Of a DNA stretch of 29,616 nucleotides, positions 2,393-20,172 are shown in pieces (position 1 is the first letter of the stretch; each line of letters starts with the position of its first letter). Under the pieces are notes generated by a model. That model did no database searches and was not told the DNA's origin. It saw only the letters and a list, made by a program, of their open reading frames with translations. Origin of the DNA: a virus; the IMG/VR virus record IMGVR_UViG_3300035183_000545, positions 1 through 29,616 of that record; one strand, 5' to 3'. The position numbers and the translations under genes are program-made.

Positions 2393-3454
2393 CTACGCGG
2401 GGCGGTACCTTCCTTCCGAAGCCGCCTTCAGGATATCCTGCTCCAGCCGCCGCCACTCATCGCCGCGATTGGCGGCGATATACTTATCATGCTCAGCGTA
2501 ATGGCGCCGGATAGCCGCTGGCGTCCATATCCGAGCTTCCTCCCGGCTTGGCAGCCCTCCAGGGCGCGAAGCGGGGACCCCACGTCCGGGCGCCGCAAAC
2601 GCTTCCAAGGACCTCTCTGGCCGCGCCGCGCCAGACTCCTGGGGGGGCGCGCCAGACGGTGCTTGCAGCGGCGGGGCACCAGCCGCGTGCTCGGCGGAGA
2701 AGGCCCGCAGATGCGCTACAATAACAGGCGTATCAAAGTTTTCAAGTGCTACGCGCAGCGCGGCAATCCGAGGGCGCCCGGTCATGGGGTCTATCTCGTT
2801 CTCCCACCGGCTAAACTCCTCAGATGTATTGATTTCCATCCAGTCAGGCACTTGCGCGCTCAACTCTGCGTACATTGCCGCGCGGCGCTGTTCTGTAGTC
2901 CGGGTCTCAAGGGTAGCCGCCATTTCCCGCGCCTGGCGGGCTTCCCGCCGTGCCTCTTCCACCCCGGCACGCGCCATCTCTTCACGCGCCGCCCGGCGCA
3001 CGACATCCAGCAAATCCGCGCCGAACGCCTCCTCGTCCTGGGGAGTAACTAGTCCAAGTGTACGCCCAGCTGCCGACGCGGGCGCAGCCTCCTCTTCTTT
3101 GCGTGCCGCGAGTGCCTGCTCCAGCCCGGCAATACGAGCCTCAGCCTGCGCCAGCCGCTCCATAGCTGACGCCAGCCTCCCTTGAGACGCACGATACCTG
3201 GACTCCCAATCGACATGATCCGGCGCCGGCTGCTTCTGCGTTGGCTGCTGCTGGGGTTCCTGAGCCGCCGGTTCCTGCGGTGCCTCTGGCGGAGCCTCCT
3301 GCGGGGGTTCCTGCGGGGTCTCTGGCGGAGCCTCCTGCGGGGGTTCCTGCGGCGCTCCTGTGCCATATACGGCAGCATATAGCTCATCCGCCCGCGCCGC
3401 CGCCGCAGTTACTGCCGGCGGAATAGTCGCCTCGACCGCGCCCGCACCACTCAT
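2393..3454 (-). CDS. Scaffolding protein, 353 aa
   Basis: It lies directly before the coat gene, the usual place for the internal scaffold that guides procapsid assembly. Residues about 35-75 are a low-complexity Pro/Gln/Glu tract built on PQEPPQEAPPE units. Residues about 85-125 and 145-195 are Arg/Glu/Ala-rich and likely coiled coil (MERLAQAEARIAGLEQALAA; AREEMARAGVEEARREAR). The C-terminus is basic and helical (IRRHYAEHDKYIAANRGDEWRRLEQDILKA in two stretches), as in scaffolds that bind coat through a charged C-terminal helix. AAGGAG precedes ATG at 3454. The call rests on composition and position, not on a family match. Confidence 0.8.
   Translation of the reverse strand: MSGAGAVEATIPPAVTAAAARADELYAAVYGTGAPQEPPQEAPPETPQEPPQEAPPEAPQEPAAQEPQQQPTQKQPAPDHVDWESRYRASQGRLASAMERLAQAEARIAGLEQALAARKEEEAAPASAAGRTLGLVTPQDEEAFGADLLDVVRRAAREEMARAGVEEARREARQAREMAATLETRTTEQRRAAMYAELSAQVPDWMEINTSEEFSRWENEIDPMTGRPRIAALRVALENFDTPVIVAHLRAFSAEHAAGAPPLQAPSGAPPQESGAARPERSLEAFAAPGRGVPASRPGGLPSREEARIWTPAAIRRHYAEHDKYIAANRGDEWRRLEQDILKAASEGRYRPA
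3284..3352. repeat. 36-bp tandem repeat inside the scaffold gene
   Basis: Two nearly identical 36-bp units, starting at 3284 and 3320, each encode the 12-residue unit PQEPPQEAPPE plus Thr or Ala. The copies differ by very few bases, which suggests a recent duplication or slippage in a flexible linker. Confidence 0.8.
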
Positions 3455-8848: not shown

Positions 8849-9349
8849 TCACCCCGCCGGCCACACGGCCTTCGGCAAGGTGCTCATGCGCCTCACTGCG
8901 TTCAGGAAGTGAGAATACATGACGCGCGCCCAGGGCGGCAGGTCGTCCCACGCCTCCGGGACCTCCGCACCGAGCAGCGGTGCCAAAGACAACGGCGCCG
9001 CCTCGCCCACGCGCCTCACATACGCATAGTAACTGAACGCCGTCGTGTGCACGTCCAGCGGGTCCTGCTCATAGGGCGCGTCCTGCTCCGGCTGCCAGTC
9101 ATTGTTTGGGGAGCGGTTCAGCCGGCGGATTTCCGCCACGACGCGCTCCTTGCCGGCGGCGGACAACTGACCCCACGGGGGCAGTTGATCCAGAAACAAA
9201 GACTGCTGGCTCGTGTAGCGCCGGGAGGCTAGGCCGCGCGCCGCTTGCGCCACGCGCTCTTCCTCGACGCCGACGCGCAGCACGTCGCGCACGAACTCAT
9301 ACGCGCACTGGGCCACCTGGTAGTCGGTCAGTGTCGTCGTGCGCATCAC
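8849..9349 (-). CDS. Hypothetical protein, 166 aa
   Basis: The GTG at 9349 overlaps the upstream stop as GTGA; the in-frame ATG at 9346 is the other candidate start. The protein has an N-terminal helical region (YQVAQCAYEFVRDVLRVGVEEE) and a C-terminal segment with WDDLPPWARVMYSHFLNAVRRM. The pattern 'W..L......m...F...V' in that tail recalls small helical phage proteins that sense or bind a ligand, but I cannot name the family. It shares an operon with a helix-turn-helix protein and a methyltransferase-like protein, so a regulatory or DNA-modification accessory role is possible. Confidence 0.78.
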   Translation of the reverse strand: MMRTTTLTDYQVAQCAYEFVRDVLRVGVEEERVAQAARGLASRRYTSQQSLFLDQLPPWGQLSAAGKERVVAEIRRLNRSPNNDWQPEQDAPYEQDPLDVHTTAFSYYAYVRRVGEAAPLSLAPLLGAEVPEAWDDLPPWARVMYSHFLNAVRRMSTLPKAVWPAG

Positions 9350-9636
9350 TCGTCCTTCCCCGGGGGGCCATATACGAACTTCACGGACAGATCAGGCAGC
9401 ACGATTACCGAGGCGGCGAAGCCGTTCTTGCGCTGGTAGGCGATCAGCTTGCGCTCCAGCCACCCATTCGCCGAAGGCTTGTTGCGGTAACTGCGCAGCC
9501 TGCGCACGGCGCGGGCCGCCGCCACGACAGAGATGCCCAGCGACTTGGACACATCGACCGCCCGCATGCCCTGGTTGTGCACCATGTAATTGATCACGGC
9601 CATGCGAAGGAGAGACAGAGTGGATTTCAGTGCCAT
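9346..9636 (-). CDS. Helix-turn-helix DNA-binding protein, 96 aa
   Basis: A likely transcription regulator. Residues about 24-50 (MRAVDVSKSLGISVVAAARA, then VRRLRSY) have the spacing of a winged helix-turn-helix: a first helix, the turn at LGIS, and a basic recognition helix. The C-terminal VIVLPDLSVKFVYG could form the wing strands. It is first in a leftward operon facing the rightward accessory genes across a 365-bp region with palindromes, the usual place for an early or late switch regulator. AAGGGG precedes ATG 9636. Targets are unknown; dyads in 9776-9790 and 9883-9955 are candidates. Confidence 0.75.
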   Translation of the reverse strand: MALKSTLSLLRMAVINYMVHNQGMRAVDVSKSLGISVVAAARAVRRLRSYRNKPSANGWLERKLIAYQRKNGFAASVIVLPDLSVKFVYGPPGKDE

Positions 9637-9692
9637 GAAGAACCCCTTTTCGGTTTACATAACCTTATAGTGCGCCCAGCCGGGGTGTCAAT

Positions 9693-9773
9693 GGGGGGTT
9701 TTGGGGGTGGGGTGGTGTGTGGTCGGGGGGTTTAGAGGCGGAGGGGGTTGGGGTGGGGCGGCGGAGGGCGGGG
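9693..9773 (+). other. G-run tract, possible G-quadruplexes
   Basis: On the plus strand, runs of 4-6 G occur at 9693-9698, 9703-9707, 9709-9712 and 9725-9730. A second cluster has 9743-9747, 9750-9753, 9755-9758, 9766-9768 and 9770-9773. Each cluster could form a four-run quadruplex. The strand bias is extreme compared with the rest of the window. Confidence 0.7.
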
Positions 9774-9775
9774 TG

Positions 9776-9790
9776 GTTAGGATATCTAAC
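9776..9790. promoter_or_regulatory. Operator-like dyad
   Basis: GTTAG and CTAAC form a 5-bp dyad around GATAT, immediately after the G-run tract in the divergent region. A similar ATCTAAC occurs near 24915-24921. Binding by the adjacent helix-turn-helix protein is a guess. Confidence 0.35.
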
Positions 9791-9882
9791 GAAATGTGGC
9801 GAGGGGGCGAGGTGTGAGAGCACCACCTGACCGAGCCGGACCCCCCCGCCCCATGTCCATGCCCACCCGGGGTCAGCTGCCA

Positions 9883-9902
9883 CTAGGCCCAGCTGGGCCT
9901 AG
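9883..9902. promoter_or_regulatory. 20-bp perfect palindrome
   Basis: CTAGGCCCAGCTGGGCCTAG is a perfect palindrome upstream of the first rightward accessory gene. GGCCTAG recurs directly after it at 9905-9911. It could be an operator or a hairpin; there is no U-run, so it is not a standard terminator. Confidence 0.6.
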
Positions 9903-9925
9903 TCGGCCTAGTCGCTTAGCACGAT

Positions 9926-9984
9926 AAGCACCAAAATAAGCCACTATGCACATAGTAGGAAGCCATCGCTTCCTAGCCGAACAA
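9926..9984 (+). promoter_or_regulatory. Leader element, copy 1
   Basis: About 59 nt closely matching a second copy at 10770-10828. It contains the dyad CTATG-CA-CATAG (9944-9955) and an 8-bp stem TAGGAAGC/GCTTCCTA with loop CATC (9956-9975). It ends about 18 nt before the start codon of the gene at 10002. In the other copy the outer T-A pair of the stem is C-G, so pairing is kept. It could be a promoter/operator plus a leader hairpin controlling translation or mRNA stability. Confidence 0.65.
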
Positions 9985-10001
9985 CAACCCGGAGCTACTC
10001 A

Positions 10002-10331
10002 ATGACCGGTATGCCATTCCGCGTGTTCGATACACCCGAGACCGCCGTCAGGCTGGCAAATGTCGATGGCCAACCCGATGCCCATGATGAAGCGCGCGCG
10101 CGCCAAGCGGCGTCAGATATTCTGCGGCGCAAGAACGTTGACGCGCGCAAGGCATACAAGTCCTTTCTGCTGTGGAAACAGAATAAATCGCGCGCCCACA
10201 GTGATGAGTGTCTCAATTTGGTTTACGCGTGGATTGACGCGGAAAACGCCGCCAGGTGGGCGTATAACGCGCGGCGGAACAGTCACAATCATGCTTACAT
10301 CGAGTTAAGACCAGCTGCGCGCTATTACTGA
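10002..10331 (+). CDS. Expanded small-protein family, copy A (109 aa)
   Basis: First of at least five related genes. Conserved features are a helix HDEARARQAASDILRRK (residues about 28-44), a second helix ending in AYKSFLLW, then AWIDAENAARWAYNARR and the strand-like AYIELRP near the C-terminus. No catalytic residues, signal peptide or membrane segment are visible; it looks like a soluble, mainly helical protein. GGAG lies 8 nt before ATG 10002. Upstream is leader element copy 1; downstream the stop codon sits in a 13-base sequence shared by copies A, B and C, followed by a palindrome. I do not recognise the family, so its function is unknown. Confidence 0.85.
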   Translation: MTGMPFRVFDTPETAVRLANVDGQPDAHDEARARQAASDILRRKNVDARKAYKSFLLWKQNKSRAHSDECLNLVYAWIDAENAARWAYNARRNSHNHAYIELRPAARYY

Positions 10332-10341
10332 CGCGCCAGGC
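10329..10341 (+). repeat. Stop-codon 13-mer, copy 1
   Basis: TGACGCGCCAGGC spans the stop of copy A. The identical 13-mer is found at the stops of copies B (10709-10721) and C (11167-11179). Identity outside the coding sequence suggests duplicated cassettes or a functional trailer. Confidence 0.75.
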
Positions 10342-10344
10342 TAA

Positions 10345-10372
10345 CAAGCGCCACACTCGAGTGTGGCGCTTG
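10345..10372 (+). terminator. Trailer palindrome after copy A
   Basis: A perfect 28-bp palindrome, arms beginning CAAGCGCCACAC with centre TCGA. As RNA it forms a 12-bp stem with a UCGA loop. No U-run follows, so it is an atypical terminator at best; RNA stabilisation or processing is as likely. Its partner after copy B differs by two paired A-T to G-C changes. Confidence 0.65.
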
Positions 10373-10405
10373 CTCACCACCACAACCACCACCAGGAGAG
10401 ACACA

Positions 10406-10711
10406 ATGACCACCACCATCGACACCGCCGTCCGCGTTCAGTCAATCACCGGCCAGCGCGGCAGCGACAAGGACGAAGCTCGCGCGATCCGCGCGGCGGA
10501 AGCCGTCCTGCGCCGTCATCGAGTTGGCGCTATCGAGGCCTATGAAGCGTATCTCGCGACGGTGGAAGCCGATATCGATTGCGACGACGCCAATTTTCCT
10601 CGGCTGGCGCGAGTGTGGCTGGAAGCGGAGAGCGCCGCCGAAATCGCGTATGTCAAAGGCTGGCATAACCCGGATGCGGCGTACATCGAGATCGCGCCGT
10701 ACTGGTTGTGA
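10406..10711 (+). CDS. Expanded small-protein family, copy B (101 aa)
   Basis: ATG at 10406 follows AGGAGAG at about 7 nt. The N-terminus MTTTIDTAVRVQSITGQRG is shared with copy D. The family core follows: KDEARAIRAAEAVLRRHRVG, AIEAYEAYLATVEAD, then LARVWLEAESAAEIAYVKGW and AAYIEIAPYW. It is closest to copies D and F, more distant from A and C. It lies 74 nt after copy A, with the A trailer palindrome between them, and has its own stop-codon 13-mer and palindrome. The protein is soluble and probably helical with a C-terminal strand; function is unknown. Confidence 0.88.
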   Translation: MTTTIDTAVRVQSITGQRGSDKDEARAIRAAEAVLRRHRVGAIEAYEAYLATVEADIDCDDANFPRLARVWLEAESAAEIAYVKGWHNPDAAYIEIAPYWL

Positions 10712-10721
10712 CGCGCCAGGC
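10709..10721 (+). repeat. Stop-codon 13-mer, copy 2
   Basis: Same TGACGCGCCAGGC as at 10329-10341, placed identically on the stop codon of copy B. Confidence 0.75.
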
Positions 10722-10723
10722 TG

Positions 10724-10753
10724 GCAAGCGCCGCGCTCGAGCGCGGCGCTTGC
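10724..10753 (+). terminator. Trailer palindrome after copy B
   Basis: A perfect 30-bp palindrome, arms beginning GCAAGCGCCGCGC. It is homologous to 10345-10372 but with two paired substitutions that keep the stem intact and one extra outer pair. No U-run follows. Confidence 0.65.
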
Positions 10754-10769
10754 TCCGCGCCCAGTTCAT

Positions 10770-10828
10770 AAGCACCGAAATACGCAAATATGCGCATAGC
10801 AGGAAGCCATCGCTTCCTGGCCAGGCAA
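10770..10828 (+). promoter_or_regulatory. Leader element, copy 2
   Basis: Aligns with 9926-9984. It holds the perfect dyad TATGCGCATA (10789-10798) and the stem CAGGAAGC/GCTTCCTG with loop CATC (10800-10819). It ends 17 nt before ATG 10846. The loop is unchanged and the outer stem pair is C-G instead of T-A, which argues that pairing or symmetry is under selection. Confidence 0.65.
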
Positions 10829-10845
10829 CCAAGAAAGGATAACTG

Positions 10846-11169
10846 ATGCACAAGCACAACGCCAACAAGCTGGATACCGCCGTCGAAGTCGAATGGGACT
10901 TCGGCCAGATCGGCAATGCCAGCGACTTCGCCCGCGCGCGCAAGGCCGCGTCCGATATGCTGCGTTACTACCGAGTCAGCGCCCCTGCGGCCTATGCGGC
11001 ATACAAGGAAGTTATGCGAGACAAGTCGCATCCCATGGAGGGCAAAGTAGGGTATGACGCGACGGCATGGATGCGCGCGAAGGGCGCCGCTAGCAGCGCA
11101 TACACCGCGCGGTTCGGAGATCCGTTCGCCGGGTACATCAAGATTAAGCCGGCCACGGGCCAGCACTGA
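10846..11169 (+). CDS. Expanded small-protein family, copy C (107 aa)
   Basis: ATG at 10846 follows AAAGGA at about 7 nt, downstream of leader element copy 2. The N-terminus (MHKHNANKLDTAVEVEWDFG) differs from copies A and B apart from LDTAV. The core is recognisable: DFARARKAASDMLRYYRVSA, PAAYAAYKEV, then AWMRAKGAASSAYTARFGDP and GYIKIKPATG. It is the last gene before the strong terminator at 11189. It is the most diverged full-length copy, so it is probably not the newest duplicate. Function is unknown. Confidence 0.85.
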   Translation: MHKHNANKLDTAVEVEWDFGQIGNASDFARARKAASDMLRYYRVSAPAAYAAYKEVMRDKSHPMEGKVGYDATAWMRAKGAASSAYTARFGDPFAGYIKIKPATGQH

Positions 11170-11179
11170 CGCGCCAGGC
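11167..11179 (+). repeat. Stop-codon 13-mer, copy 3
   Basis: Same TGACGCGCCAGGC as the two earlier copies, on the stop codon of copy C; here it leads into a different hairpin with a U-run. Confidence 0.75.
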
Positions 11180-11188
11180 GGGCTGACG

Positions 11189-11220
11189 AATAACCCGCGC
11201 GCAAGCGCGGGTTATTTTTT
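11189..11220 (+). terminator. Rho-independent terminator
   Basis: A perfect 12-bp stem, AATAACCCGCGC with its complement around loop GCAA, with further T's running straight on (11217-11220). This is the clearest terminator in the window. It closes the A-B-C transcript. Confidence 0.88.
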
Positions 11221-11342
11221 CGGCGCCAGCCGGGCGGAGCAGGCCAGCAAGCGCCGGGTCTATCGCGCTAAATGCATATTTTGAGCATTTCATACAGACA
11301 AGCATTTATCATCATAGCCAGTGTTAGATTAAAAGGTATTTA

Positions 11343-11361
11343 GTTTCGCGGACGTTTCGCG
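11343..11361. repeat. Iteron-like direct repeat
   Basis: GTTTCGCG occurs at 11343-11350 and 11354-11361, an 11-bp step that puts both on the same helix face. Such spacing is typical of initiator or regulator binding sites. Confidence 0.5.
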
Positions 11362-11518
11362 ACACATAGGACACTAGACCGCGAAAATCGCCAAAATTGG
11401 GCCAAAAATTACGTGGGGAAACACTGTTGTCCATATAATATCGCACAATCTGCATTCCGCAATAAGTTTCAATCTGGCGTCGAGTTAGCGCCCATATTTG
11501 TGCAACCATGGCTAGAAT

Positions 11519-11553
11519 AAGTGTACTAAGTGTCGGATGTGTCTTTTGTAACG
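11519..11553. repeat. Direct repeat, copy 1
   Basis: Begins AAGTGTACTAAGTGTCGG and ends CTTTTGTAACG. It matches 11636-11674 with one base change in the first 17 and small gaps later. AAGTGT itself occurs twice within the unit. Confidence 0.65.
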
Positions 11554-11635
11554 AATACCAAAGAAACCATATGTGCACGGGGTCTAACCCGTTGATATAT
11601 ATATGTGTCTTGATAAGGTACAGTTATTTATACTT

Positions 11636-11674
11636 AAGTGTGCTAAGTGTCGAAGAAGGTGCCTTTTCGTAACG
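11636..11674. repeat. Direct repeat, copy 2
   Basis: Begins AAGTGTGCTAAGTGTCGA and ends CTTTTCGTAACG; second copy of the unit at 11519-11553. It directly precedes the long inverted repeat. Confidence 0.65.
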
Positions 11675-11677
11675 CGA

Positions 11678-11720
11678 GGGACTGGCTTAGGTCATGGTCA
11701 CCATGACCTAAGCCAGTCCC
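11678..11720. repeat. 43-bp inverted repeat (21-bp perfect arms)
   Basis: Arms 11678-11698 and 11700-11720 are perfect complements around a single C at 11699; each arm starts or ends with GGGACTGGCTTAGG or its complement. There is no U-run on either side. It could be a cruciform, part of an origin, a bidirectional attenuator, or a binding site for a dimeric protein. Confidence 0.75.
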
Positions 11721-11812
11721 CTTTAAAACCGTTGCTATTTTCGAGATTTCGATAGACACATCCGTTTCCACTAACATTGCGCTACGCCGCAAAATATTTT
11801 TTGCGTTGCCCC

Positions 11813-11841
11813 TTGCACTACGATGAACCATATGATATATC
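11813..11841 (+). promoter_or_regulatory. Sigma70-like promoter for the gene at 11873
   Basis: TTGCAC (11813-11818), a 17-bp spacer, then TATATC (11836-11841). The start would be near 11848, giving a leader of about 25 nt with AAGGA before ATG 11873. Matches to consensus are good but not perfect. Confidence 0.5.
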
Positions 11842-11872
11842 TTCGCGTGCCCACCGACCAAGGAACCAAGCC

Positions 11873-12310
11873 ATGACCACTCCCCGGCCCGCCCCCCTGA
11901 ACGCCGCGCCCGGCGTGCTCGGCCAGTACCCCGCCGAGGCCTGGACGCTCGCCCGCCAGCTCGCCTCGCTCCAGCTTAGCGACGAATTGTTGCAGTATTG
12001 CGAGCGCATCACCAGGCCGCGCCCGCACAGTCTGTGGACCTATTGGCAGGATGACGATTCACTGCCTCACGGGGGCCGTCTCGTGCTGCCTGCCGGCGCC
12101 TCGCAGGCCATCCTGGTCTATGACCACGGCACCGGGCCGCAGTGCGTGAATATCGTCATCCTGGCCGGCGAGACCGACCAGCAGGCCGGCATCGCCTGGA
12201 TCGCGGAGGCGAGCGCGTACACCGGCTATCCGCACCGCCTCATCTACGTTGGCCGGGGGGATGAGGCCGCTGCCGATGCGCGCGCCCGGGCGTTGTTCGC
12301 CGGCGCGTGA
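11873..12310 (+). CDS. Hypothetical protein with YPxExW motif, 145 aa
   Basis: ATG 11873 has AAGGA about 9 nt upstream; the frame extends further upstream, but only into AT-rich DNA. Residues about 15-45 (GQYPAEAWTLARQLAS, then LSDELLQYCERI) match residues about 9-40 of the 56-aa protein at 17656, so the two share a domain. The rest has strands such as CVNIVILAG and RLIYVGRGD and an Ala-rich helical end. No catalytic motif is recognised. It is first in the operon that continues into family copy D and the ATPase module, and is probably driven by the promoter at 11813. Confidence 0.82.
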   Translation: MTTPRPAPLNAAPGVLGQYPAEAWTLARQLASLQLSDELLQYCERITRPRPHSLWTYWQDDDSLPHGGRLVLPAGASQAILVYDHGTGPQCVNIVILAGETDQQAGIAWIAEASAYTGYPHRLIYVGRGDEAAADARARALFAGA

Positions 12311-12335
12311 GTAACCCACAAACGAGAGAGAACCA

Positions 12336-12650
12336 ATGACCAACCATGCCGATGCGCTGGACACTGCAATCTCAATCGCGTCAATCACTGGCCAAGCGGG
12401 CGACTATCTCGACGAAGCGCGCGCGAAGCGCGCAGCATCTGTCGTTCTGCAGCGCCACAATGTATCAGCAATTTCGGCTTACAAGGCATTTTTGATCGCG
12501 ACGAAAGCCGGGCTGGACAGTGACGACACGAAGTTTCCGCACCGCGCGCGCGTTTGGTTGGAAGCGGAAAGCGCCGCCAGCGCCGCGTACGTCAGACATT
12601 GGGATGATCCTGACGGAACATATGTCGAAATTGTGCCTCGCTATTACTGA
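12336..12650 (+). CDS. Expanded small-protein family, copy D (104 aa)
   Basis: ATG 12336 follows GAGAGAG at about 6 nt. The N-terminus reads LDTAISIASITGQAG, close to copy B. The core is LDEARAKRAASVVLQRHNVS, AISAYKAFLIATKAG, then RARVWLEAESAASAAYVRHW and YVEIVPRYY. Unlike copies A-C it has neither the leader element nor the stop-codon 13-mer (only TGACGCCACC), so the regulatory elements do not travel with every copy. It lies between the YPxExW gene and the ATPase module. Function is unknown. Confidence 0.88.
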   Translation: MTNHADALDTAISIASITGQAGDYLDEARAKRAASVVLQRHNVSAISAYKAFLIATKAGLDSDDTKFPHRARVWLEAESAASAAYVRHWDDPDGTYVEIVPRYY

Positions 12651-12674
12651 CGCCACCACCACGGGAGAGACCGC

Positions 12675-13712
12675 ATGACCAACGACACCGATACCGCCGA
12701 TACCATCCTCGCCACGACAACCCATGCCGTCGCGTCAACGTGCATGAAGGCACGTCTTACCACGTCAGCCTTTGGCGTCCGTCAGCATGACAAGGCCCTG
12801 GGCAGCAACGTTGCGTTGCAGGCCGGCGCGGATGCGACCGCCGTTTCCGTTTCACTGAACAAACTGGCGGGGGCGGACGAAGCGCACAAGCTCATGGTCA
12901 GCCTCCAAGCCGCCGCGCGTGGCATCCTCTACGAGTACACGTCCCCTTGGGATGCGGCGTGGCGCCTGCTGCCGGCGACGTCCTTCGACGCCATGGCGCG
13001 TGCCATGGCGAGCGTTCAGACCGAGTTTCAATCCGCGTTGGAAGAGTTGCGCGCGGCGGCGCCCGATATCATCCGCCGCGCCTCCGCTGCGCTCGGGCCG
13101 CTCGCCGCGCGCGTGAAACTGCCGTCCCCCGAGGAGCTGGGCGAGGCGTATAGCCTGCGCGTGGACTACGCGCCGGTCGAGACCGCCTCGGCGGCGGGGT
13201 TCCCCGGCGTGCCGCGCGTTGTCGCGGAGCGCCTGGCCGAGTTGATGGAAGCGCGGGCCAAGGCACAGATTGCCGAGGCGCTGCGCGATACACGCGAGCG
13301 TCTTTCGCATTCGCTGCACACCATGGCGGCTCGCTTGGCTGAGTACGACGCGCGCGAGGACGCCAAGAACGCGGACCCTGACTATAAATCGCGCAAGGGG
13401 GTGTTTAGGGACTCGCTGGTGAGCAATCTGGAAGATAGCCTCGCACTGGCGTCATCCATGGTCGCTGCCATTCCCGGCGCCGACCCGCTGCTGGAAGAGG
13501 CCTGCGCGCGTACGCGGCGCCTGCTCGCCGATCTGCGCGCGGCAAGCGCCCGGCTGACCGTCGGCTCCGCCCCGGCGCCGTCCTTGGCGGCTGTGCTGCG
13601 CGAGGATGCCGTGGCGCGGCACGCGGCGCGCCGCGCCGCCGAGGATGCCGCCGCGTTGGGCGGAGACAGTGTTGCCGCGATCATGGAAGCGTTTACGGGG
13701 GTAGCGGCATGA
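12675..13712 (+). CDS. Conserved phage protein of the ATPase/VWA module, 345 aa
   Basis: ATG 12675 follows GGGAGAG. It is a mostly helical, Ala/Arg/Leu-rich protein. The segment ARLTTSAFGVRQHDKALG, then YTSPWDAAWRLLPATSF (residues about 87-103) and FRDSLVSNLEDSLALASSM matches a phage family I recall with 'S....R..D', 'PWD..wRLLPa' and 'FRDSLV.NL', usually encoded just before a MoxR ATPase and a VWA protein and sometimes labelled DUF3150-like. No enzyme motif is visible; helical partner proteins in such modules may be adaptors or substrates. It overlaps the next gene by ATGA. Confidence 0.82.
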   Translation: MTNDTDTADTILATTTHAVASTCMKARLTTSAFGVRQHDKALGSNVALQAGADATAVSVSLNKLAGADEAHKLMVSLQAAARGILYEYTSPWDAAWRLLPATSFDAMARAMASVQTEFQSALEELRAAAPDIIRRASAALGPLAARVKLPSPEELGEAYSLRVDYAPVETASAAGFPGVPRVVAERLAELMEARAKAQIAEALRDTRERLSHSLHTMAARLAEYDAREDAKNADPDYKSRKGVFRDSLVSNLEDSLALASSMVAAIPGADPLLEEACARTRRLLADLRAASARLTVGSAPAPSLAAVLREDAVARHAARRAAEDAAALGGDSVAAIMEAFTGVAA

Positions 13713-13993
13713 TCGCGAAGAACCGTGTCACCAAGGAAGCGTTCCTTGCGGCCTACGAAGCCCGCCTGCGCGGCTTGGTGGGCGCGCATGACGGGCACAT
13801 TCCCGGCTTTCTCGCGCAAGTACGCGCGGCGATTTTCTCGCAGGCTAAGCGCGCGCCGTGGTCCCCCGTCACTGACACGGCGTACGCAGCGTGGCGCGAT
13901 GCGGGCGGGACCGGGGAAATCTCGCTGGACCGCCTGCGGAGGCTGCCGGACGGCGCGCCGCCTGCTCATGCAACCCTGAATGTGGAGGACTGA
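13709..13993 (+). CDS. Small protein in the ATPase/VWA module, 94 aa
   Basis: ATG 13709 overlaps the previous stop (ATGA). The protein starts MIAKNRVTKEAFLAAYEARL and contains helical GFLAQVRAAIFSQAK, then AYAAWRDAGGTGEISLDRLRR. It has no membrane segment or enzyme motif. Position between the helical partner protein and the AAA+ ATPase, with coupled translation, suggests it works with them. The family is not recognised. Confidence 0.78.
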   Translation: MIAKNRVTKEAFLAAYEARLRGLVGAHDGHIPGFLAQVRAAIFSQAKRAPWSPVTDTAYAAWRDAGGTGEISLDRLRRLPDGAPPAHATLNVED

Positions 13994-13996
13994 CCT

Positions 13997-15127
13997 ATGT
14001 CGTTGTTTTCGCAAATTACCCTCTCGCCGGCGGAAGTTGAGGAATGGCTGCCTCGGCTGGCGCTTCTCAATTTGGAGGCGCGCGCGTCCGTCGAGATTGT
14101 CGGACCGCCCGGATGCGGCAAGTCAGAGATTGCCTTCAGCTTGGCGAAGGCAATGACAGAAAAGACGGGCAACCGATGGGCAATGGCCGTGGCGCACGCC
14201 GCGCGCTACACGCCAACCGACACGTTGGGCTTTATGATCCCTCGCCAGCGTGAGGGCGGAATGCTTGTGTCGTCTTTCACTGCCCCCCCTTGGGCGCATG
14301 TGCGTGAGGACGACACATGGGTGTTCGATCACGAGTACGGCGTGTTGGTGCTGGAAGAGTTTGGGCAGGCGGAGCCGGACACAAAGAAAGCGCTGGCGGA
14401 GTTGCTGCTGGAAGGCCGGCTTGGGCCACACTGCCTGCCGCGTGGCTGGTTTATCGTGGCCACGTCCAATCGGGCGCAGGATCGGTCCGGGGTGACGCGG
14501 GACCTTGATCACGTGCTGAATAGGATAACGCGGGTGCACATGCGACCGGACCCCGACGCTTGGGAGCAATGGGCGGTGCGCGCGGGGGTGCCGACCATCG
14601 TCATTTCTTTCGCGCTGCGCAACCCACAAATAGTGTTTGAGGGCGAAGTACCGAAGGAGCCGGGTCCTTGGGCGACGCCACGCTCGCTCGTACGCGCGGC
14701 GCGCAAGCTGGAGGCGTTCATGCCGCGCCTGGCGGACGGTGCGCTGGACGTCCGCGAAGGGCTTGACGGTGCCCTGTTCAATCTGATCGCGGGCGATATC
14801 GGCGAGGGCGCCGCGCACCAGCTGAACGCGCATATGAGGCTTGTGACGCAGCTTCCGTCGCTCGACGACGTGCTCGCCGCCCCCGGCGCCGTGGACGTGC
14901 CTAGCCGGCCCGATTTGCAAATGCTGCTGGTCTATGAAATGGCAGCGAAAGCGACCCCGGCCAACATGGATAAGCTGCTGACCTACATGCGCAGGCTGCC
15001 ACGGGAGTTTGCGGTGGCGTTCGCGAAGGCAGCAGTGGGCTACTCGCCGAAGGTGCTGCTGACCACGTGCATGACGCAATTTGTTGCGGAAAACTCGGTG
15101 CTTATGGCAGCCATGGCGAGGAAATGA
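13997..15127 (+). CDS. MoxR-type AAA+ ATPase, 376 aa
   Basis: Walker A GPPGCGKS is at 36-43. The Walker B region is GVLVLEEFGQAEPD (115-128), with Glu-Glu at 120-121 where Asp-Glu is usual. Sensor 1 is ATSNRAQD (155-162), and a basic region with DHVLNRITRVHMRPD follows. The short N-terminus and immediate pairing with a VWA-domain gene are typical of MoxR ATPases, which act as chaperones or remodellers on a target recruited by the VWA partner. GGAGG lies about 8 nt before ATG 13997. The last base pairs overlap the VWA gene start (ATGA). Target and purpose in the phage are unknown. Confidence 0.9.
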   Translation: MSLFSQITLSPAEVEEWLPRLALLNLEARASVEIVGPPGCGKSEIAFSLAKAMTEKTGNRWAMAVAHAARYTPTDTLGFMIPRQREGGMLVSSFTAPPWAHVREDDTWVFDHEYGVLVLEEFGQAEPDTKKALAELLLEGRLGPHCLPRGWFIVATSNRAQDRSGVTRDLDHVLNRITRVHMRPDPDAWEQWAVRAGVPTIVISFALRNPQIVFEGEVPKEPGPWATPRSLVRAARKLEAFMPRLADGALDVREGLDGALFNLIAGDIGEGAAHQLNAHMRLVTQLPSLDDVLAAPGAVDVPSRPDLQMLLVYEMAAKATPANMDKLLTYMRRLPREFAVAFAKAAVGYSPKVLLTTCMTQFVAENSVLMAAMARK

Positions 15128-16392
15128 CAAACATGTATAACGTAGTTTCTGGCGCGAAGCGTACGCATGATCGGCTGACTGCCTTGAAGGGTCGGCTTTT
15201 GGTGGAGCAAGCGTTCTTTAGCTACATGCTCTACTCTACCACGCGCTTGCGTGTAGTGAATGACGCTTCATTCACTCACGTTGCCGCAACGGACGGATAC
15301 AATATCCTGCTGAACGAAGATACATTCTTCGCGATGCAGCCATCAGAACAGATATTCGTGCTGGCGCATGAGTTGCTGCACGTCGTATTCGATCACTGCG
15401 GGCAATCCAAGCGATACGCCGAGGCGGGCGGCATCGCGTATCAGGACGGAGTGACGCTGCCATTTGATAGACGCTTGGCGAACGTCGCGCAGGACGCGGT
15501 AATCAACAAGATACTGGACGATGCGCGCGTCGGGACCATGCCACGCGGCGGGGTGTTCTTTCCGTTCGTGTCAGCTGCTGACGGTTGGGTGGACGTGTAC
15601 CGCACCCTGTTCAAGGATGAGAAAGCTGGCGGCGCCCCCCGGCTGGGCTTAGAACGGCCCTTCGACGAACATATGGACCCGGCGGACGTGCCGGACGATG
15701 GCGAAGAGGCGCCGCCGCGCCCCTCGCCGGCGCAATTGGCCGGTGCGGTGCGGGAAGCCATGGCGCGGGCGAAAGCCCATGGCACGCTGCCTGCTGCCTT
15801 GGAGCGGGCGCTAGGGGGCGCGGCGGCGCCCCCCGTGGACTGGCGGGAAGTACTCCGCGCCAGCGTCCAGCGCGTGCTCGGCACGGGGGCGTATTCATGG
15901 GAGAGGCCGGACCGGCGGATGCTGGCGCGGGGGGCGCGCGATTTAAGCCGGATGGTGGTTGCGCCTGGCCGGGCGGGGCGCAGGGTGGGCGGCATCGTGA
16001 TTGCGGTCGATACGTCGGGGTCCGTGGCGCCCGCCGTGCTGGACGTGTTCGCGGCGGCAATGTCTGATATCTTGTCCCAAGCGCGCCCGGCATGGGCGGA
16101 CATTTTGTGGTGCGATGCCGCCATAGGCGCGCATCATCACGTAACCGACCCGGACGGGTTGCGGGACGTGCTGGCGCAGCCGGTCCCGGGTGGGGGCGGG
16201 ACGGACTTCCGCCCGGTGTTCGGGTGGGTCGAAGCGGCACACGCGCGCCCGGACGCGGTGGTGTATTTGACTGACTTGTACGGCACGTTTCCTGCGCATC
16301 AGCCGGACGGCGTGCAGACTATCTGGGCATCCATTTCGCGCAACGCCGCTCCGCCCTGGGGCGAGTTTGTGTTCCTGGATATGAACCAATAG
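15124..16392 (+). CDS. DUF2201-like zincin + VWA protein, 422 aa
   Basis: The N-terminal domain has AHELLHVVFDH (81-91), an HExxH zinc-metallopeptidase motif with a third His. The C-terminal domain is a VWA fold with a complete metal site: DTSGS (296-300), Thr in GGGGTDF (360) and Asp in YLTDLYG (384). This is the DUF2201 layout, normally paired with a MoxR ATPase as here. Between them lies an acidic, Pro-rich linker (residues about 180-205). It could be a protease or a metal-dependent substrate adaptor for the ATPase. ATG 15124 overlaps the ATPase stop; ATG 15133 has better spacing to GAGGA and is an equally good start. Confidence 0.9.
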   Translation: MTNMYNVVSGAKRTHDRLTALKGRLLVEQAFFSYMLYSTTRLRVVNDASFTHVAATDGYNILLNEDTFFAMQPSEQIFVLAHELLHVVFDHCGQSKRYAEAGGIAYQDGVTLPFDRRLANVAQDAVINKILDDARVGTMPRGGVFFPFVSAADGWVDVYRTLFKDEKAGGAPRLGLERPFDEHMDPADVPDDGEEAPPRPSPAQLAGAVREAMARAKAHGTLPAALERALGGAAAPPVDWREVLRASVQRVLGTGAYSWERPDRRMLARGARDLSRMVVAPGRAGRRVGGIVIAVDTSGSVAPAVLDVFAAAMSDILSQARPAWADILWCDAAIGAHHHVTDPDGLRDVLAQPVPGGGGTDFRPVFGWVEAAHARPDAVVYLTDLYGTFPAHQPDGVQTIWASISRNAAPPWGEFVFLDMNQ

Positions 16393-16425
16393 CAGCAAGC
16401 CTGACTGTCGAAGGGGGGCAAGACA

Positions 16426-17196
16426 ATGAGCCGCATTCCTGAATACATCTACAGCGCGCTCACTGGGCGCGCGCGCTCGGCGGGGCACGCATTGATGGCG
16501 GCGTACATGGACGACTTGCCGCTTACACCGAGAGAGTTAGACTTGTTGTTCATATCTGAGGAAGAGTACGAGATGGTCTCGAAGGTGTACGCCATGCGGC
16601 GGAGCCAGATATATTCTTTGGCTGAATTGCGTATATCCTGCGACGGTCTGGCTTCCAGGCCGGAGTGGGCCGGGCGCAAACTACAATTGGGTTGGGCCGG
16701 ACCACGTAGCCGCATTGAATTAGCTCCACGTGACAAAATTGTATTCGTGTCGCCGAAGGACGTCCAATTGCGCCCCGGCGCAAACCCTGAGCATGTAGCC
16801 ATACTGTCTGCTTATGTCGATCAAGCCTGCTTGTTGTTTGACCATTACACCGCCGTGTCTCGGTTCATTACCGGAGCCATGTCGATGCTTTCTTCGGGGT
16901 CGGCGCTTAAACTGGCGATGCCCAATGTGCTTGCCGCCGTAGGCGATAGTAAGCCCTTCAGCATGTATTTGCCCCGCTTCGACGCCGCGCGGGGGCGTTT
17001 GCCTGCCTGCTGGGTGAGGGATGGTTGGGCGGAAGCGGAGGAGTTTGCAGCGTCGTTCATCGCGAAGGGGATGCTTCTGGGGGATGAGGGCCGTTGCTTG
17101 GATTGGAGGTACATGCCGCGCGCATTTGTTTACGAAACGGCTTATGTGAAACTGCCATTCTTGCCGGACCCCGTTCCCTTGGAGACTATCCCATGA
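16426..17196 (+). CDS. Hypothetical protein, 256 aa
   Basis: AAGGGGGG sits about 8 nt before ATG 16426, a strong ribosome site. The protein has a charged N-terminus (LTPRELDLLFISEEEYEM), a basic middle (ELAPRDKIVFVSPKDVQLRP) and a moderately hydrophobic helical stretch near 145-165 (AVSRFITGAMSMLSSGSALK), then a Trp-rich end. It has neither a signal peptide nor an enzyme motif I recognise. It follows the VWA gene by 33 nt and is co-directional, so it may belong to that module, but nothing in its sequence shows this. Confidence 0.82.
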   Translation: MSRIPEYIYSALTGRARSAGHALMAAYMDDLPLTPRELDLLFISEEEYEMVSKVYAMRRSQIYSLAELRISCDGLASRPEWAGRKLQLGWAGPRSRIELAPRDKIVFVSPKDVQLRPGANPEHVAILSAYVDQACLLFDHYTAVSRFITGAMSMLSSGSALKLAMPNVLAAVGDSKPFSMYLPRFDAARGRLPACWVRDGWAEAEEFAASFIAKGMLLGDEGRCLDWRYMPRAFVYETAYVKLPFLPDPVPLETIP

Positions 17197-17212
17197 CGCG
17201 AGGAGGCGCACC

Positions 17213-17677
17213 ATGTCGGCTGTTGTAGATACCGCCGTGTCCTGGTACCATCGTTCCCTGGTAAAGGGCTACGCATCCGTTGTGGGGCTGCATGGTCCTG
17301 CGCTACGTGTATTCAAACACATGTGGCGCGAGCATCTCGCGGAGACCAGATGGCATCCCGTAGGCATAGACTATTTGCCCATTACTGGTAAGCCACGATA
17401 CTGCTACGTGTATGTGCCATACCGCACGACTTTGGCTCCGCTTCGAACGTGGCTGAGTATGTTCAGTGAGAGTACGTGCGGCCCAGTACCGCACAGTTAT
17501 AATTACGATATGGCTAAAGAGCGTGTCGTGCCGTTCCCCTTTGGCCGAGAAGGCCGCACCAGGTTCGTTATTCCTAGCGACCAGGTGGACGCGGTGGATA
17601 AGATCATAGCCGCATCCGGTTGGAGAAGCCTCATAACAAAAGAAAGGACGACAACATGCCAATCTACCCCGGCGTGA
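17213..17677 (+). CDS. Hypothetical protein, 154 aa
   Basis: GAGGAGG lies about 6 nt before ATG 17213. The sequence is rich in Tyr, Arg and His (GKPRYCYVYVPYRTTLAPL) with a C-terminal region holding FVIPSDQVDAVDKIIAASGW. It has no membrane segment and no recognised motif. The last 22 nt overlap the next gene in another frame, so the final residues (TTTCQSTPA) may be of little importance. Family unknown. Confidence 0.78.
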   Translation: MSAVVDTAVSWYHRSLVKGYASVVGLHGPALRVFKHMWREHLAETRWHPVGIDYLPITGKPRYCYVYVPYRTTLAPLRTWLSMFSESTCGPVPHSYNYDMAKERVVPFPFGREGRTRFVIPSDQVDAVDKIIAASGWRSLITKERTTTCQSTPA

Positions 17678-17826
17678 CTGGCACCTATCCGCCCGAGGTA
17701 TGGCGGCGGGCTGAGATGCTGGCAGACGGAGAGATCACTGATGAGCTACTCCGCCTCGCCGAGAGGCTGGTGCAGTACGAGCGCAAGCTGCAAGAGGCAG
17801 CGGCTCGGACGGAGGACAAGAAATGA
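17656..17826 (+). CDS. Small YPxExW-motif protein, 56 aa
   Basis: ATG 17656 follows AAAGGA at about 7 nt. The sequence GTYPPEVWRRAEMLADGE, then ITDELLRLAERLVQYERK matches the N-terminal part of the 145-aa protein at 11873 (G.YP.E.W..A..LA, then DELL...ER). It is thus a stand-alone version of that domain, about 5.8 kb away. It is predicted helical and charged. It overlaps the next gene by ATGA. Function is unknown. Confidence 0.8.
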   Translation: MPIYPGVTGTYPPEVWRRAEMLADGEITDELLRLAERLVQYERKLQEAAARTEDKK

Positions 17827-18521
17827 CCATGGCATGGCACTTCACCCGCGATAGGTTGCGCTCCGGCCACCTTATTCCGGAGCCGGGCTACGTGCTCCGT
17901 GACATTGCCCCGCTAAAGCCTGGGCTATCTGGATTGCACGCATCCTCGAACATCCTGGACGCGCTTGTATACGCGCCTGGGCCGCTCTTGCATCGTGTGC
18001 GGATGAGCGGAAAGACCGTCCACGACAGCGATAAGATGGTCGCGGAAGAACGCACCATTATCTGGTCCATCGACGCGACCAGCATTCTCTTGGCCTGCGC
18101 TCGGCACTGGGCGCTAGAAGTCGCACACCTTTGGGACGCGCCGCCGAAAGCTCTAGAGTATCTGAAAACCGGCAATGATAAATTGCGCCGTGATGCCAGA
18201 TCCGCTGCACGCGCCGCCATTAGCGCGGCGCGTAAAAGCAAGGACGACGCAATGACTGTGGCACGGACTGCCGCCTACGCCGCGCTGAACGCTGCCGCTA
18301 CGCCGCATCAGATCGAGCAGGATGCGATTACGATTGCTCTAGCATCAGCGGCGAACGCGGCATCGGCTATCGGTGAGAAGGCAGTTAGCGCCCTGCCAGC
18401 CAGCGTTAGTCAATTCGACATGGAACGGCCCGCAACATATGCTGCTGCTCGGGACGCCGCTCGCGCGCGTCAGGAACAGCACATTGTCGAAGCGGTTACA
18501 CAGGTACACGAAAGGAGGTAA
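17823..18521 (+). CDS. DUF7666-like protein, tandem copy 1 (232 aa)
   Basis: Residues 1-110 follow a phage pattern I associate with DUF7666: AWHFTRD at the start, SGLHASSNILDALVYAPG (36-53), LLHRVRMSGKTVHDSDKMVA, then IIWSIDATSILLACARHWAL and VAHLW. The remaining half is a long Ala-rich helical tail (ARAAISAARKSK, AAYAALNAAAT). The HASS and HRV positions are the most conserved in the family; no activity is known to me. The gene directly precedes a related copy, with an AGGAGG site in between. Confidence 0.82.
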   Translation: MTMAWHFTRDRLRSGHLIPEPGYVLRDIAPLKPGLSGLHASSNILDALVYAPGPLLHRVRMSGKTVHDSDKMVAEERTIIWSIDATSILLACARHWALEVAHLWDAPPKALEYLKTGNDKLRRDARSAARAAISAARKSKDDAMTVARTAAYAALNAAATPHQIEQDAITIALASAANAASAIGEKAVSALPASVSQFDMERPATYAAARDAARARQEQHIVEAVTQVHERR

Positions 18522-18524
18522 AGA

Positions 18525-19211
18525 ATGATACTCGCCTGGCACTTTACTCGCGACATGACCCAAGTCGGCCCGCCGGTCCCGGTGCCGGGCCAGGTGATTA
18601 AGTATTATGAGCCTCTCGAATCGTTGCTATCAGTGCCATCTGCCTCGGATCGCATCATTGATGCACTGACCGCCGCCCCTGGTCATCTTCTCCACCGCGT
18701 ACGCCTGGGCGGGAAAATCCTCCGACACGGAACCCGGTTGGTATCATCGGAATGGACCTTCCTCTGGTCCATCGACGCGAGGGAAATCCTTTTGGATTGC
18801 GCTCGCCGCTGGGCGCTCGACGTTCTCCATTTGTGGACTTTGCCGGCGATGGTGAAGGAGTATCTGGAGACTGGCCGGGAGGAATTGCGAGACGCCGCCA
18901 TAGCCGCCTCGCTCTCTGTCAGTGCGGCTGCCTCCGCCGCTTGGTCTGCCGCCTTCATTGCTTACACAAAGGGCTACCATGATACATCATTCAAAGCGAG
19001 AGACGCCGACATTGTTGCGTCTAAGGCCGCAGAAGCCGCTGCCAAGGCAGCTATCCATTCTGCCAGGGTTGCCGCCATCGACGCTGGGCTTGATGCCGGA
19101 TCACTCGATGACCCTGACGGGGCAAAAGCCTTTGCCGCCATCCGTGCAAAACAAAACGACTACATCACGGATTTGGTTATGAAAGCACATGAGGAGGCAA
19201 AAAATGTCTGA
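18525..19211 (+). CDS. DUF7666-like protein, tandem copy 2 (228 aa)
   Basis: Starts MILAWHFTRD, 3 nt after copy 1, with AAAGGAGG upstream. It shares LLHRVRLGGKILRH, FLWSIDAREILLDCARRWAL and LHLW with copy 1, and also ends in an Ala-rich helical tail. The SGLHAS signature of copy 1 is replaced by SVPSAS, so the conserved Gly-Leu-His is lost. This suggests copy 2 has changed function or is decaying, although its frame is intact. Function is unknown. Confidence 0.82.
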   Translation: MILAWHFTRDMTQVGPPVPVPGQVIKYYEPLESLLSVPSASDRIIDALTAAPGHLLHRVRLGGKILRHGTRLVSSEWTFLWSIDAREILLDCARRWALDVLHLWTLPAMVKEYLETGREELRDAAIAASLSVSAAASAAWSAAFIAYTKGYHDTSFKARDADIVASKAAEAAAKAAIHSARVAAIDAGLDAGSLDDPDGAKAFAAIRAKQNDYITDLVMKAHEEAKNV

Positions 19212-19461
19212 TGATCTCAACACTGGCAGGCACTACCACGACGCCGGGCCGCTCACAAAGAATGTGCTGGCCATCCGCGAGCACGTGCGCCAGCGCGCCG
19301 AGACCGGCGCGCTGGCGGATGCGGAATGGCTTGCGCATCTTGCCGATGCACTTTCCAGTTTGGCGGAGCGGGTCGAGGCGTTGGAGAACGCGCAGGCCTC
19401 CGCCGCTGCGCGGCGGGCGTGGAACGGACGGATTACTGTTATTGACGGGGGAGCAAGATAA
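19204..19461 (+). CDS. Small helical protein, 85 aa
   Basis: GAGGAGG lies about 6 nt before ATG 19204, and the gene overlaps the end of the previous one by 8 nt. Residues about 45-70 (WLAHLADALSSLAERVEALE) are a likely coiled coil; the N-terminus reads MSDDLNTGRHYHDAGPL. Its stop overlaps the start of the next gene (TAATG). No family is recognised. Confidence 0.78.
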   Translation: MSDDLNTGRHYHDAGPLTKNVLAIREHVRQRAETGALADAEWLAHLADALSSLAERVEALENAQASAAARRAWNGRITVIDGGAR

Positions 19462-19613
19462 TGTCGCGTACCTGGTTAACTTGTTATATCGTGGTCACTT
19501 CTGCGCTATGGTTCGCCGTGGGAGCATTCGTCGGCGCATCGTTGCGCGATATGGCCGCGCATACGACCGGCTCCGGTTTGAGCCTTGGCGCGATGCTTGG
19601 AGGCGGACAATGA
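19461..19613 (+). CDS. Small membrane protein, TM copy 1 (50 aa)
   Basis: ATG 19461 overlaps the upstream stop. One membrane segment covers about residues 5-27 (WLTCYIVVTSALWFAVGAFV). The C-terminus is GSGLSLGAMLGGGQ. It is closely related to the second half of the next gene, and perhaps to the 46-aa protein at 22042. The stop overlaps the next start (ATGA). It is likely an inner-membrane peptide of unknown role. Confidence 0.75.
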   Translation: MSRTWLTCYIVVTSALWFAVGAFVGASLRDMAAHTTGSGLSLGAMLGGGQ

Positions 19614-19855
19614 TACAAGCGGAACAAAATAAGCTCGACACAAGGGTCGCCGCCGGCGCGACAGAATGCCAGCATGGCAACGCTGAACGTGAAGCAGAAG
19701 CTGTTCTGTGCATCTGGTTAATTTGTTGTGTCGTGCTCATTTCTGCGCTCTCGTTTGCTACGGGAACATTGATTGGCGCGGCGCGGCATGAGGCGACCGC
19801 CCAGGCGGCGTGTTCTGGCCTGCGCCTCGGCGCGACGCTGGGAGGTGGGCAATGA
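19610..19855 (+). CDS. Chimeric protein: truncated family copy E fused to TM copy 2 (81 aa)
   Basis: Residues 1-32 (QNKLDTRVAAGATECQ, then AEREAEAVL) are the N-terminus of the expanded small-protein family and align with the next gene. At residue about 33 the sequence switches to CIWLICCVVLISALSFATG and ends SGLRLGATLGGGQ, which aligns with the whole TM copy 1. The frame is intact across the junction, so a tandem duplication followed by an internal deletion made an in-frame fusion. Starts and stops overlap neighbours by ATGA on both sides. It may be expressed; whether it functions is unknown. Confidence 0.78.
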   Translation: MIQAEQNKLDTRVAAGATECQHGNAEREAEAVLCIWLICCVVLISALSFATGTLIGAARHEATAQAACSGLRLGATLGGGQ

Positions 19856-20172
19856 CACAAACGAAACAGAAGGTGTTAGACACAAGGGTTGTTATCGTCT
19901 CAACAGAAGGCCAGCCTGGCAACGCTAAACATGAAGCGCGCGCGGTACGTGCGGCAGAGGCTGTGTTGCGGCGGCACAAGGTCTCCGCGGTTGAAGCGTA
20001 TAAGGCCTTCATGGCGGCGCTTGATGAGAGGATTGAGTTTAATGACGCCGCACCGCGCTTGGCCCGCATCTGGTTTGAAGCGACGTGCGCCGCCGACGCG
20101 GCCTATTCCAAGGGCTGGTGCGAAGATGACCACGAGACATTCGTCGTAATCGAGCCGGCGGAATCAATATGA
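19852..20172 (+). CDS. Expanded small-protein family, copy F (106 aa)
   Basis: ATG 19852 overlaps the chimera stop, with GGAGGTGGG just upstream. N-terminus MTQTKQKVLDTRVVIVSTEG; core KHEARAVRAAEAVLRRHKVS, AVEAYKAFMAALDE, then LARIWFEATCAADAAYSKGW, and a C-terminus VVIEPAESI. It is closest to copies B and D. It ends in an ATGA overlap with the DNA polymerase gene, so this family member is translationally coupled to replication. Function is unknown. Confidence 0.87.
   Translation: MTQTKQKVLDTRVVIVSTEGQPGNAKHEARAVRAAEAVLRRHKVSAVEAYKAFMAALDERIEFNDAAPRLARIWFEATCAADAAYSKGWCEDDHETFVVIEPAESI

Follow-up and report, generated by a model that had tools for sequence, protein, structure and literature searches.

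Why would a phage carry five copies of one small gene? The question is raised by the virus record IMGVR_UViG_3300035183_000545, a 29.6-kb stretch of DNA that was analysed over its whole length and is referred to here as the window. Its five related genes all lie on the plus strand, and are named here c1 (10002-10331, 109 aa), c2 (10406-10711, 101 aa), c3 (10846-11169, 107 aa), c4 (12336-12650, 104 aa) and c5 (19852-20172, 106 aa). As the contig is probably incomplete, five copies are a lower bound. An initial annotation of this DNA had described an unrecognised family of five full copies and one truncated copy, had attributed it to repeated duplication, and had proposed selection for diversified binding or for gene dosage as the reason.

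The five genes are true homologues and form one family. Every copy retrieved the four others in an all-versus-all BLAST search, and codon alignments of about 100 aligned codons gave amino acid identities of 31-55% between them, so that the five related copies of the initial annotation are real. The family has an alanine content of 17-21%, and a resemblance due to composition only was considered from the start as what would overturn the family. Smith-Waterman alignments against composition-matched shuffles rule this out, with Z values of 16-46 among the five copies and of 12-61 across the full set of 28 pairs formed by the eight known domains (c1-c5 and three domains from another phage, described below). 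None of the shuffled sequences came near the real scores. Furthermore, all five copies have open frames and plausible ribosome-binding sites, and thus are intact, as first noted, though they have diverged strongly. The shared sequence pattern was also correctly recognised, except that its W..A..AA..AY stretch corresponds to the third predicted helix and not to the second, and that a strand is found at each end of the domain.

Structure prediction, which had been suggested for single chains, was run on c4 and gave a confident model of a compact beta-alpha-alpha-alpha-beta domain. The AlphaFold model m9831e7a7d1b8, based on the eight-domain alignment, reached a pLDDT of 91.7 and a pTM of 0.84 as the best of five models, which spanned pLDDT 73-92. 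Its predicted elements are a strand (12-19), three helices (24-40, 45-57 and 69-85) and a second strand (95-101). The same element order appears twice in the model of a tandem protein from the other phage, at lower confidence (pLDDT 77.7, pTM 0.52) and with an uncertain placement of the two domains relative to each other, so the evidence for a shared fold consists of the predictions for c4 and for these two domains. Fifteen of the 104 alignment columns are invariant (G19, R29, A30, A33, A34, L38, A45, A48, W74, A77, A80, A81, A84, Y85 and P101). Judged from the sequence, they are spaced three to four residues apart along the predicted helices, as would be expected if they formed a packed core. 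Arginine is the single charged residue among them, and His, Asp, Glu, Cys, Ser, Thr, Asn, Gln and Lys are all missing. The invariant residues therefore offer no visible active site, which argues against an enzyme.

While the core is conserved, the net charge at pH 7 is not. It amounts to +5 in c1 and c3 (pI 9.6 and 9.5), to -3 to -6 in c2 (pI 4.8), c4 and c5, and to -17 in the second domain of the tandem protein. This spread is hard to square with a common partner or with a simple dosage effect. Gene dosage, one of the two reasons offered initially, is thus unlikely, given that roughly every second nucleotide differs between copies and that their charges extend from +5 to -6.

The truncated fusion noted at 19610 is real as well, yet it does not represent a sixth copy. 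This frame (19610-19855, plus strand) joins the first 32 residues of the family in frame to the second copy of a membrane-protein gene, and it should not be counted because helices 2 and 3 and the last strand of the domain are missing. It arose as a side product when a 242-bp unit was duplicated in tandem (19472-19695 versus 19714-19937, 72.7% identical), and this unit comprises a small membrane-protein gene and the opening codons of a family gene. The parent of the unit is a gene for a 50-aa single-span membrane protein (19461-19613, plus strand), which is present also in two other phages. Differences between the family part of the fusion and c5 are spread evenly over the three codon positions (9, 8 and 10; n = 27, weak evidence), as expected without constraint on that part.

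The family does not belong to any well-described group that we searched, in agreement with its first description as unrecognised. Searches of Pfam, NCBIfam, PADLOC, PHROGs and the PDB found no convincing family for the copies. The best match in PHROGs was partial (E 0.0064), with different copies matching different PHROGs, and PADLOC, which covers defence and not anti-defence proteins, returned one weak match to ZorA. Against solved structures, the sequence profile gave a marginal, partial match to Hsp70 (E 0.01) that was not repeated by the fold, and the c4 fold itself reached at best an E value of 0.66 in Foldseek and a Z of 4.0 in VIA-align (a FliL fragment), which is evidence neither way.

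Two other phage proteins resemble the c4 model more closely. Foldseek matched it to A0A7G5BBB3 of Ralstonia phage Raharianne (87 aa; E 4.5e-4, probability 1.00, TM 0.60 by query and 0.70 by target) and to A0A6J5KMV0 of an uncultured Caudovirales phage (83 aa; E 8.6e-4, probability 1.00, TM 0.63 by target), and both proteins again headed the list when the tandem protein model was searched. They are of the same size class, and the predicted folds match over nearly the whole domain. However, the identity is only 22%, sequence searches give no link, and both proteins are uncharacterised. These structural matches suggest that the family probably belongs to a wider group of small uncharacterised phage proteins.

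Outside the window, the searched collections contained the family in one other phage, represented by two nearly identical contigs (L006 and L007, 99.99%). L007 encodes a single-domain member (L007:9992-10309) and the tandem protein of two family domains (L007:10704-11339, 211 residues). L007 has a different type of terminase, most similar to those of an uncultured spring-water phage and of Pseudanabaena phage Pam5, and a search with the window terminase detected no similarity in this phage. The search for relatives scanned viral contigs and genome contigs for exact matches to back-translated peptides, an approach that misses distant members, and the collections may omit records very near the window. 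Two such scans of bacterial and archaeal genomes, which reach close relatives only, confirmed no relative. Among named phages and plasmids, tblastn gave no match for c4, the family consensus or the second tandem domain and only chance matches for c2 (E 5-9), and blastn of the c1-c4 region against named phages gave no match.

The window and L007 have in common the order of a c2-like gene, an uncharacterised gene and the start of a c4-like gene, with 75-78% nucleotide identity (for example, 78% between 12010-12343 of the window and L007 10382-10711). The gene between c3 and c4 (11870-12310, plus strand) is syntenic with the one between the L007 family genes. It looks chimeric, being similar to the small gene at 17653-17826 (49% over 35 aa) in its first part and to its L007 counterpart (about L007 10396-10682) in its second. 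Directly after the tandem gene, L007 carries a small helix-turn-helix gene (11360-11596, XRE-like by eye), possibly a regulator of the tandem-gene cassette.

The duplication history differs from the one first proposed. While c2 is 69% identical to the single-domain L007 gene, it reaches no more than 55% identity with the other four copies, and the sole resolved group in the eight-domain tree joins c2 with this L007 gene, with support from FastTree only (0.91). Repeated duplication within this phage, as originally worded, is therefore not supported; this split, at least, predates the separation of the two cassettes, and cassettes have travelled among phages. The two phages also share, at 77-88% identity, a module made up of DUF7666-like genes, small genes and membrane-protein genes. 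This accessory module is found at 17823-19613 of the window, at L007 16196-17318 and at 9277-10416 of a third phage contig, L012, with roughly 65-90% nucleotide or protein identity, and the three contigs otherwise differ in their genes. No family gene was found in the 14.3-kb record of L012, which is a fragment. Two adjacent genes at 17823-18521 and 18525-19211 are paralogous (42% identical), with alanine-rich ends and a DUF7666-like start (E 1.7e-4 in the first gene, below the cut-off), and have relatives in L007, as two adjacent genes, and in L012.

Comparison with L007 also allowed selection to be measured. The c2 gene and its L007 orthologue, the sole unsaturated pair, are under purifying selection (dN/dS 0.22, dN 0.20, dS 0.91; Nei-Gojobori). 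For pairs of paralogues within the window, dS lies at about 1 to 2.4 or is undefined, and at such saturation dN/dS is uninformative on positive (diversifying) selection. From the selection initially invoked, constraint is thus confirmed for this pair, whereas diversifying selection is not demonstrated, and the comparison of dN/dS between the copies, although carried out as suggested, cannot decide on it.

The genomic setting offers a first alternative. The window encodes a terminase, an AAA ATPase (13997), a metallopeptidase/VWA protein (15130), a DNA polymerase, a RecB-like exonuclease, an SNF2 helicase and a DUF927-containing protein. The order of these backbone genes is that of Rhizobium phage RHph_TM3_14A, at protein identities of roughly 30-53%, which indicates that the window probably represents part of a tailed phage related to it. 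Scanning the whole window against Rfam and for tRNAs gave no matches. A scaffold-like gene on the minus strand contains a 36-bp tandem repeat (3270-3352) encoding a PQEAPPE-type repeat. The family could have a role inside the phage, as accessory subunits or assembly partners of replication or DNA-processing proteins, with the copies serving different phage partners. In line with this, c5 directly precedes the DNA polymerase gene and is coupled to the preceding membrane-protein frame, whose stop codon overlaps its start (ATGA), and an operon with the AAA ATPase and metallopeptidase/VWA genes comes after c4. However, a conserved internal partner predicts that the family tracks the backbone. RHph_TM3_14A retains the polymerase, ATPase, metallopeptidase, helicase and RecB-like genes, yet the interval corresponding to the family region holds a run of small hypothetical genes without a detectable family member, and the other phage with the family has a terminase without detectable similarity to that of the window. 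We consider such an internal role unlikely.

Further alternatives arise from the DNA that flanks the genes. Upstream of c1, an element on the plus strand (9924-9985) contains the hairpin TAGGAAGC-CATC-GCTTCCTA with a stem of 8 bp. It is 84% identical (52 of 62 positions) to an element upstream of c3 (10768-10829, plus strand), in which the outer hairpin pair has changed from T-A to C-G and the stem is kept, while third codon positions of the adjoining genes are only about 40% identical (p 2e-8). A second element, also on the plus strand, starts at the stop codon of c1 (10329-10375) and includes a perfect 28-nt palindrome. Its counterpart downstream of c2 (10709-10755, plus strand) is 87% identical (41 of 47 positions, versus 44% at third codon positions of the adjoining genes, p 4e-7) and includes a 30-nt palindrome with two compensatory pair changes from A-T to G-C. 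Overall, the genes beside the shared elements are 50% identical. The compensatory pairs, two downstream and one upstream, indicate that the paired structures have been kept.

Within the window, shared flanking elements were demonstrated for c1-c3 only, and no palindromes like those of c1 and c2 were seen beside c4. The upstream element of c1 and c3 had no match as an exact pattern in viral contigs, and a hairpin with the similar stem GCAAGCG lies 3' of the c2 orthologue in L007. The c1 upstream element is itself closely preceded by a perfect 22-nt palindrome, ACTAGGCCCAGCTGGGCCTAGT (9882-9903). Between c3 and the following gene, about 690 bp (11170-11860) are AT-richer and without a convincing gene, and contain a perfect inverted repeat with 21-bp arms (11678-11720), with TAAGTGTACTAAGTGTCG-like units repeated at 11518 and 11635. 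This stretch is possibly a regulatory or origin region.

The shared flanks could mean that the cassettes spread and duplicate by recombination at these sites, in a largely neutral process in which no copy is of individual importance. The tandem-duplication fusion at 19610, with its family part free of codon-position bias, and the accessory module common to three phage contigs are consistent with this. Neutrality is difficult to combine, though, with five intact frames of five at deep divergence, with 15 invariant columns, and with the low dN/dS of the single testable pair, and we judge it quite improbable.

The same elements could be the targets of the proteins, which would then be small DNA-binding regulators acting on the palindromes and hairpins that flank the genes encoding them. 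The 28-30-nt palindromes and the 8-bp hairpin, maintained by compensatory changes, would suit such a function, as would the basic c1 and c3 and a weak match of c5 to the antitoxin TacA (E 0.064). On the other hand, acidic members predominate, with charges as low as -17, no helix-turn-helix or ribbon-helix-helix family was matched by more than one member, the single invariant charged residue is an arginine, and c4 has no such palindromes. The palindromes could equally be transcription or RNA-processing signals. The downstream ones have no T run, no terminator-like or promoter-like site was called at the palindromes, and no sigma-70-like promoter was found around c1-c4. Altogether, we strongly doubt a regulatory function.

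Finally, TCAD7 (PF19973), a ternary-complex-associated domain linked to MoxR/VWA conflict systems, is of similar length (109 positions) and was weakly matched by c5 over profile positions 1 to 62 (E 0.002), and the copies might be members or relatives of it that work with the AAA ATPase and VWA genes nearby, but the assignment was rejected and is extremely improbable, as only one of the eight members matches, at 18.7 bits and thus under the curated cut-off of 24, and the ATPase/metallopeptidase pair is explained by the phage backbone, being present in RHph_TM3_14A without the family.

Our preferred interpretation, put forward tentatively and by analogy, is that these small proteins are made early, combine a conserved core with a varied surface, and bind different host factors during early host takeover. 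One small binding domain would have been multiplied, and then diversified, into five genes. The predicted fold would be held by alanine-rich helices packed into a core that two edge strands close off. The sequences and net charges differ between copies, presumably at exposed positions, which suggests that the binding partner probably changes from one copy to another. The genes form separate cassettes in a variable small-gene region, at the start of a rightward and probably early operon, with c5 just before the DNA polymerase. Early expression is suggested by this position at the head of the rightward genes and by a change of GC skew near 9-10 kb of the window. Host-factor binding would find its likeliest use in early host takeover, including stoichiometric binding to block host defence proteins. 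No anti-CRISPR-associated regulator was recognised near the copies in a non-systematic look. As the cassettes are shared by phages with different terminases, probably through exchange, a phage could keep a varied set.

A bolder form of this proposal, which we regard as rather doubtful, is that the family constitutes a hitherto unknown phage scaffold for anti-defence or host takeover, the surface of which is diversified in cassettes that carry shared control elements and are exchanged between phages, so that one phage possesses a set of inhibitors for several host targets. If the copies do bind different host factors, they would make available a ready set of natural variants of a single scaffold, and the shared flanking elements could be used as a search key for host-interaction genes in phages.

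The closest parallel comes from an archaeal virus. SIRV2 carries 12 AcrID1 homologues among its early genes, with a regulatory sequence that is conserved while the genes are not, and this early-gene signature surrounds confirmed anti-defence genes (PMC11065993). The family described here is similar in that the proteins are small, many diverged copies occur per virus genome, and, beside c1-c3, putative regulatory DNA is more conserved than the genes. A place among accessory early genes would be another common trait, given the probable early position of our cassettes. Unlike our family, AcrID1 belongs to an archaeal virus and host and is a characterised anti-CRISPR, and a sequence relation is neither found nor claimed. 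The resemblance is thus one of anatomy, and we do not claim membership in any anti-defence family. If the interpretation is correct, the archaeal-virus pattern of a multiplied small anti-defence family with shared control elements would extend to the tailed phages of bacteria.
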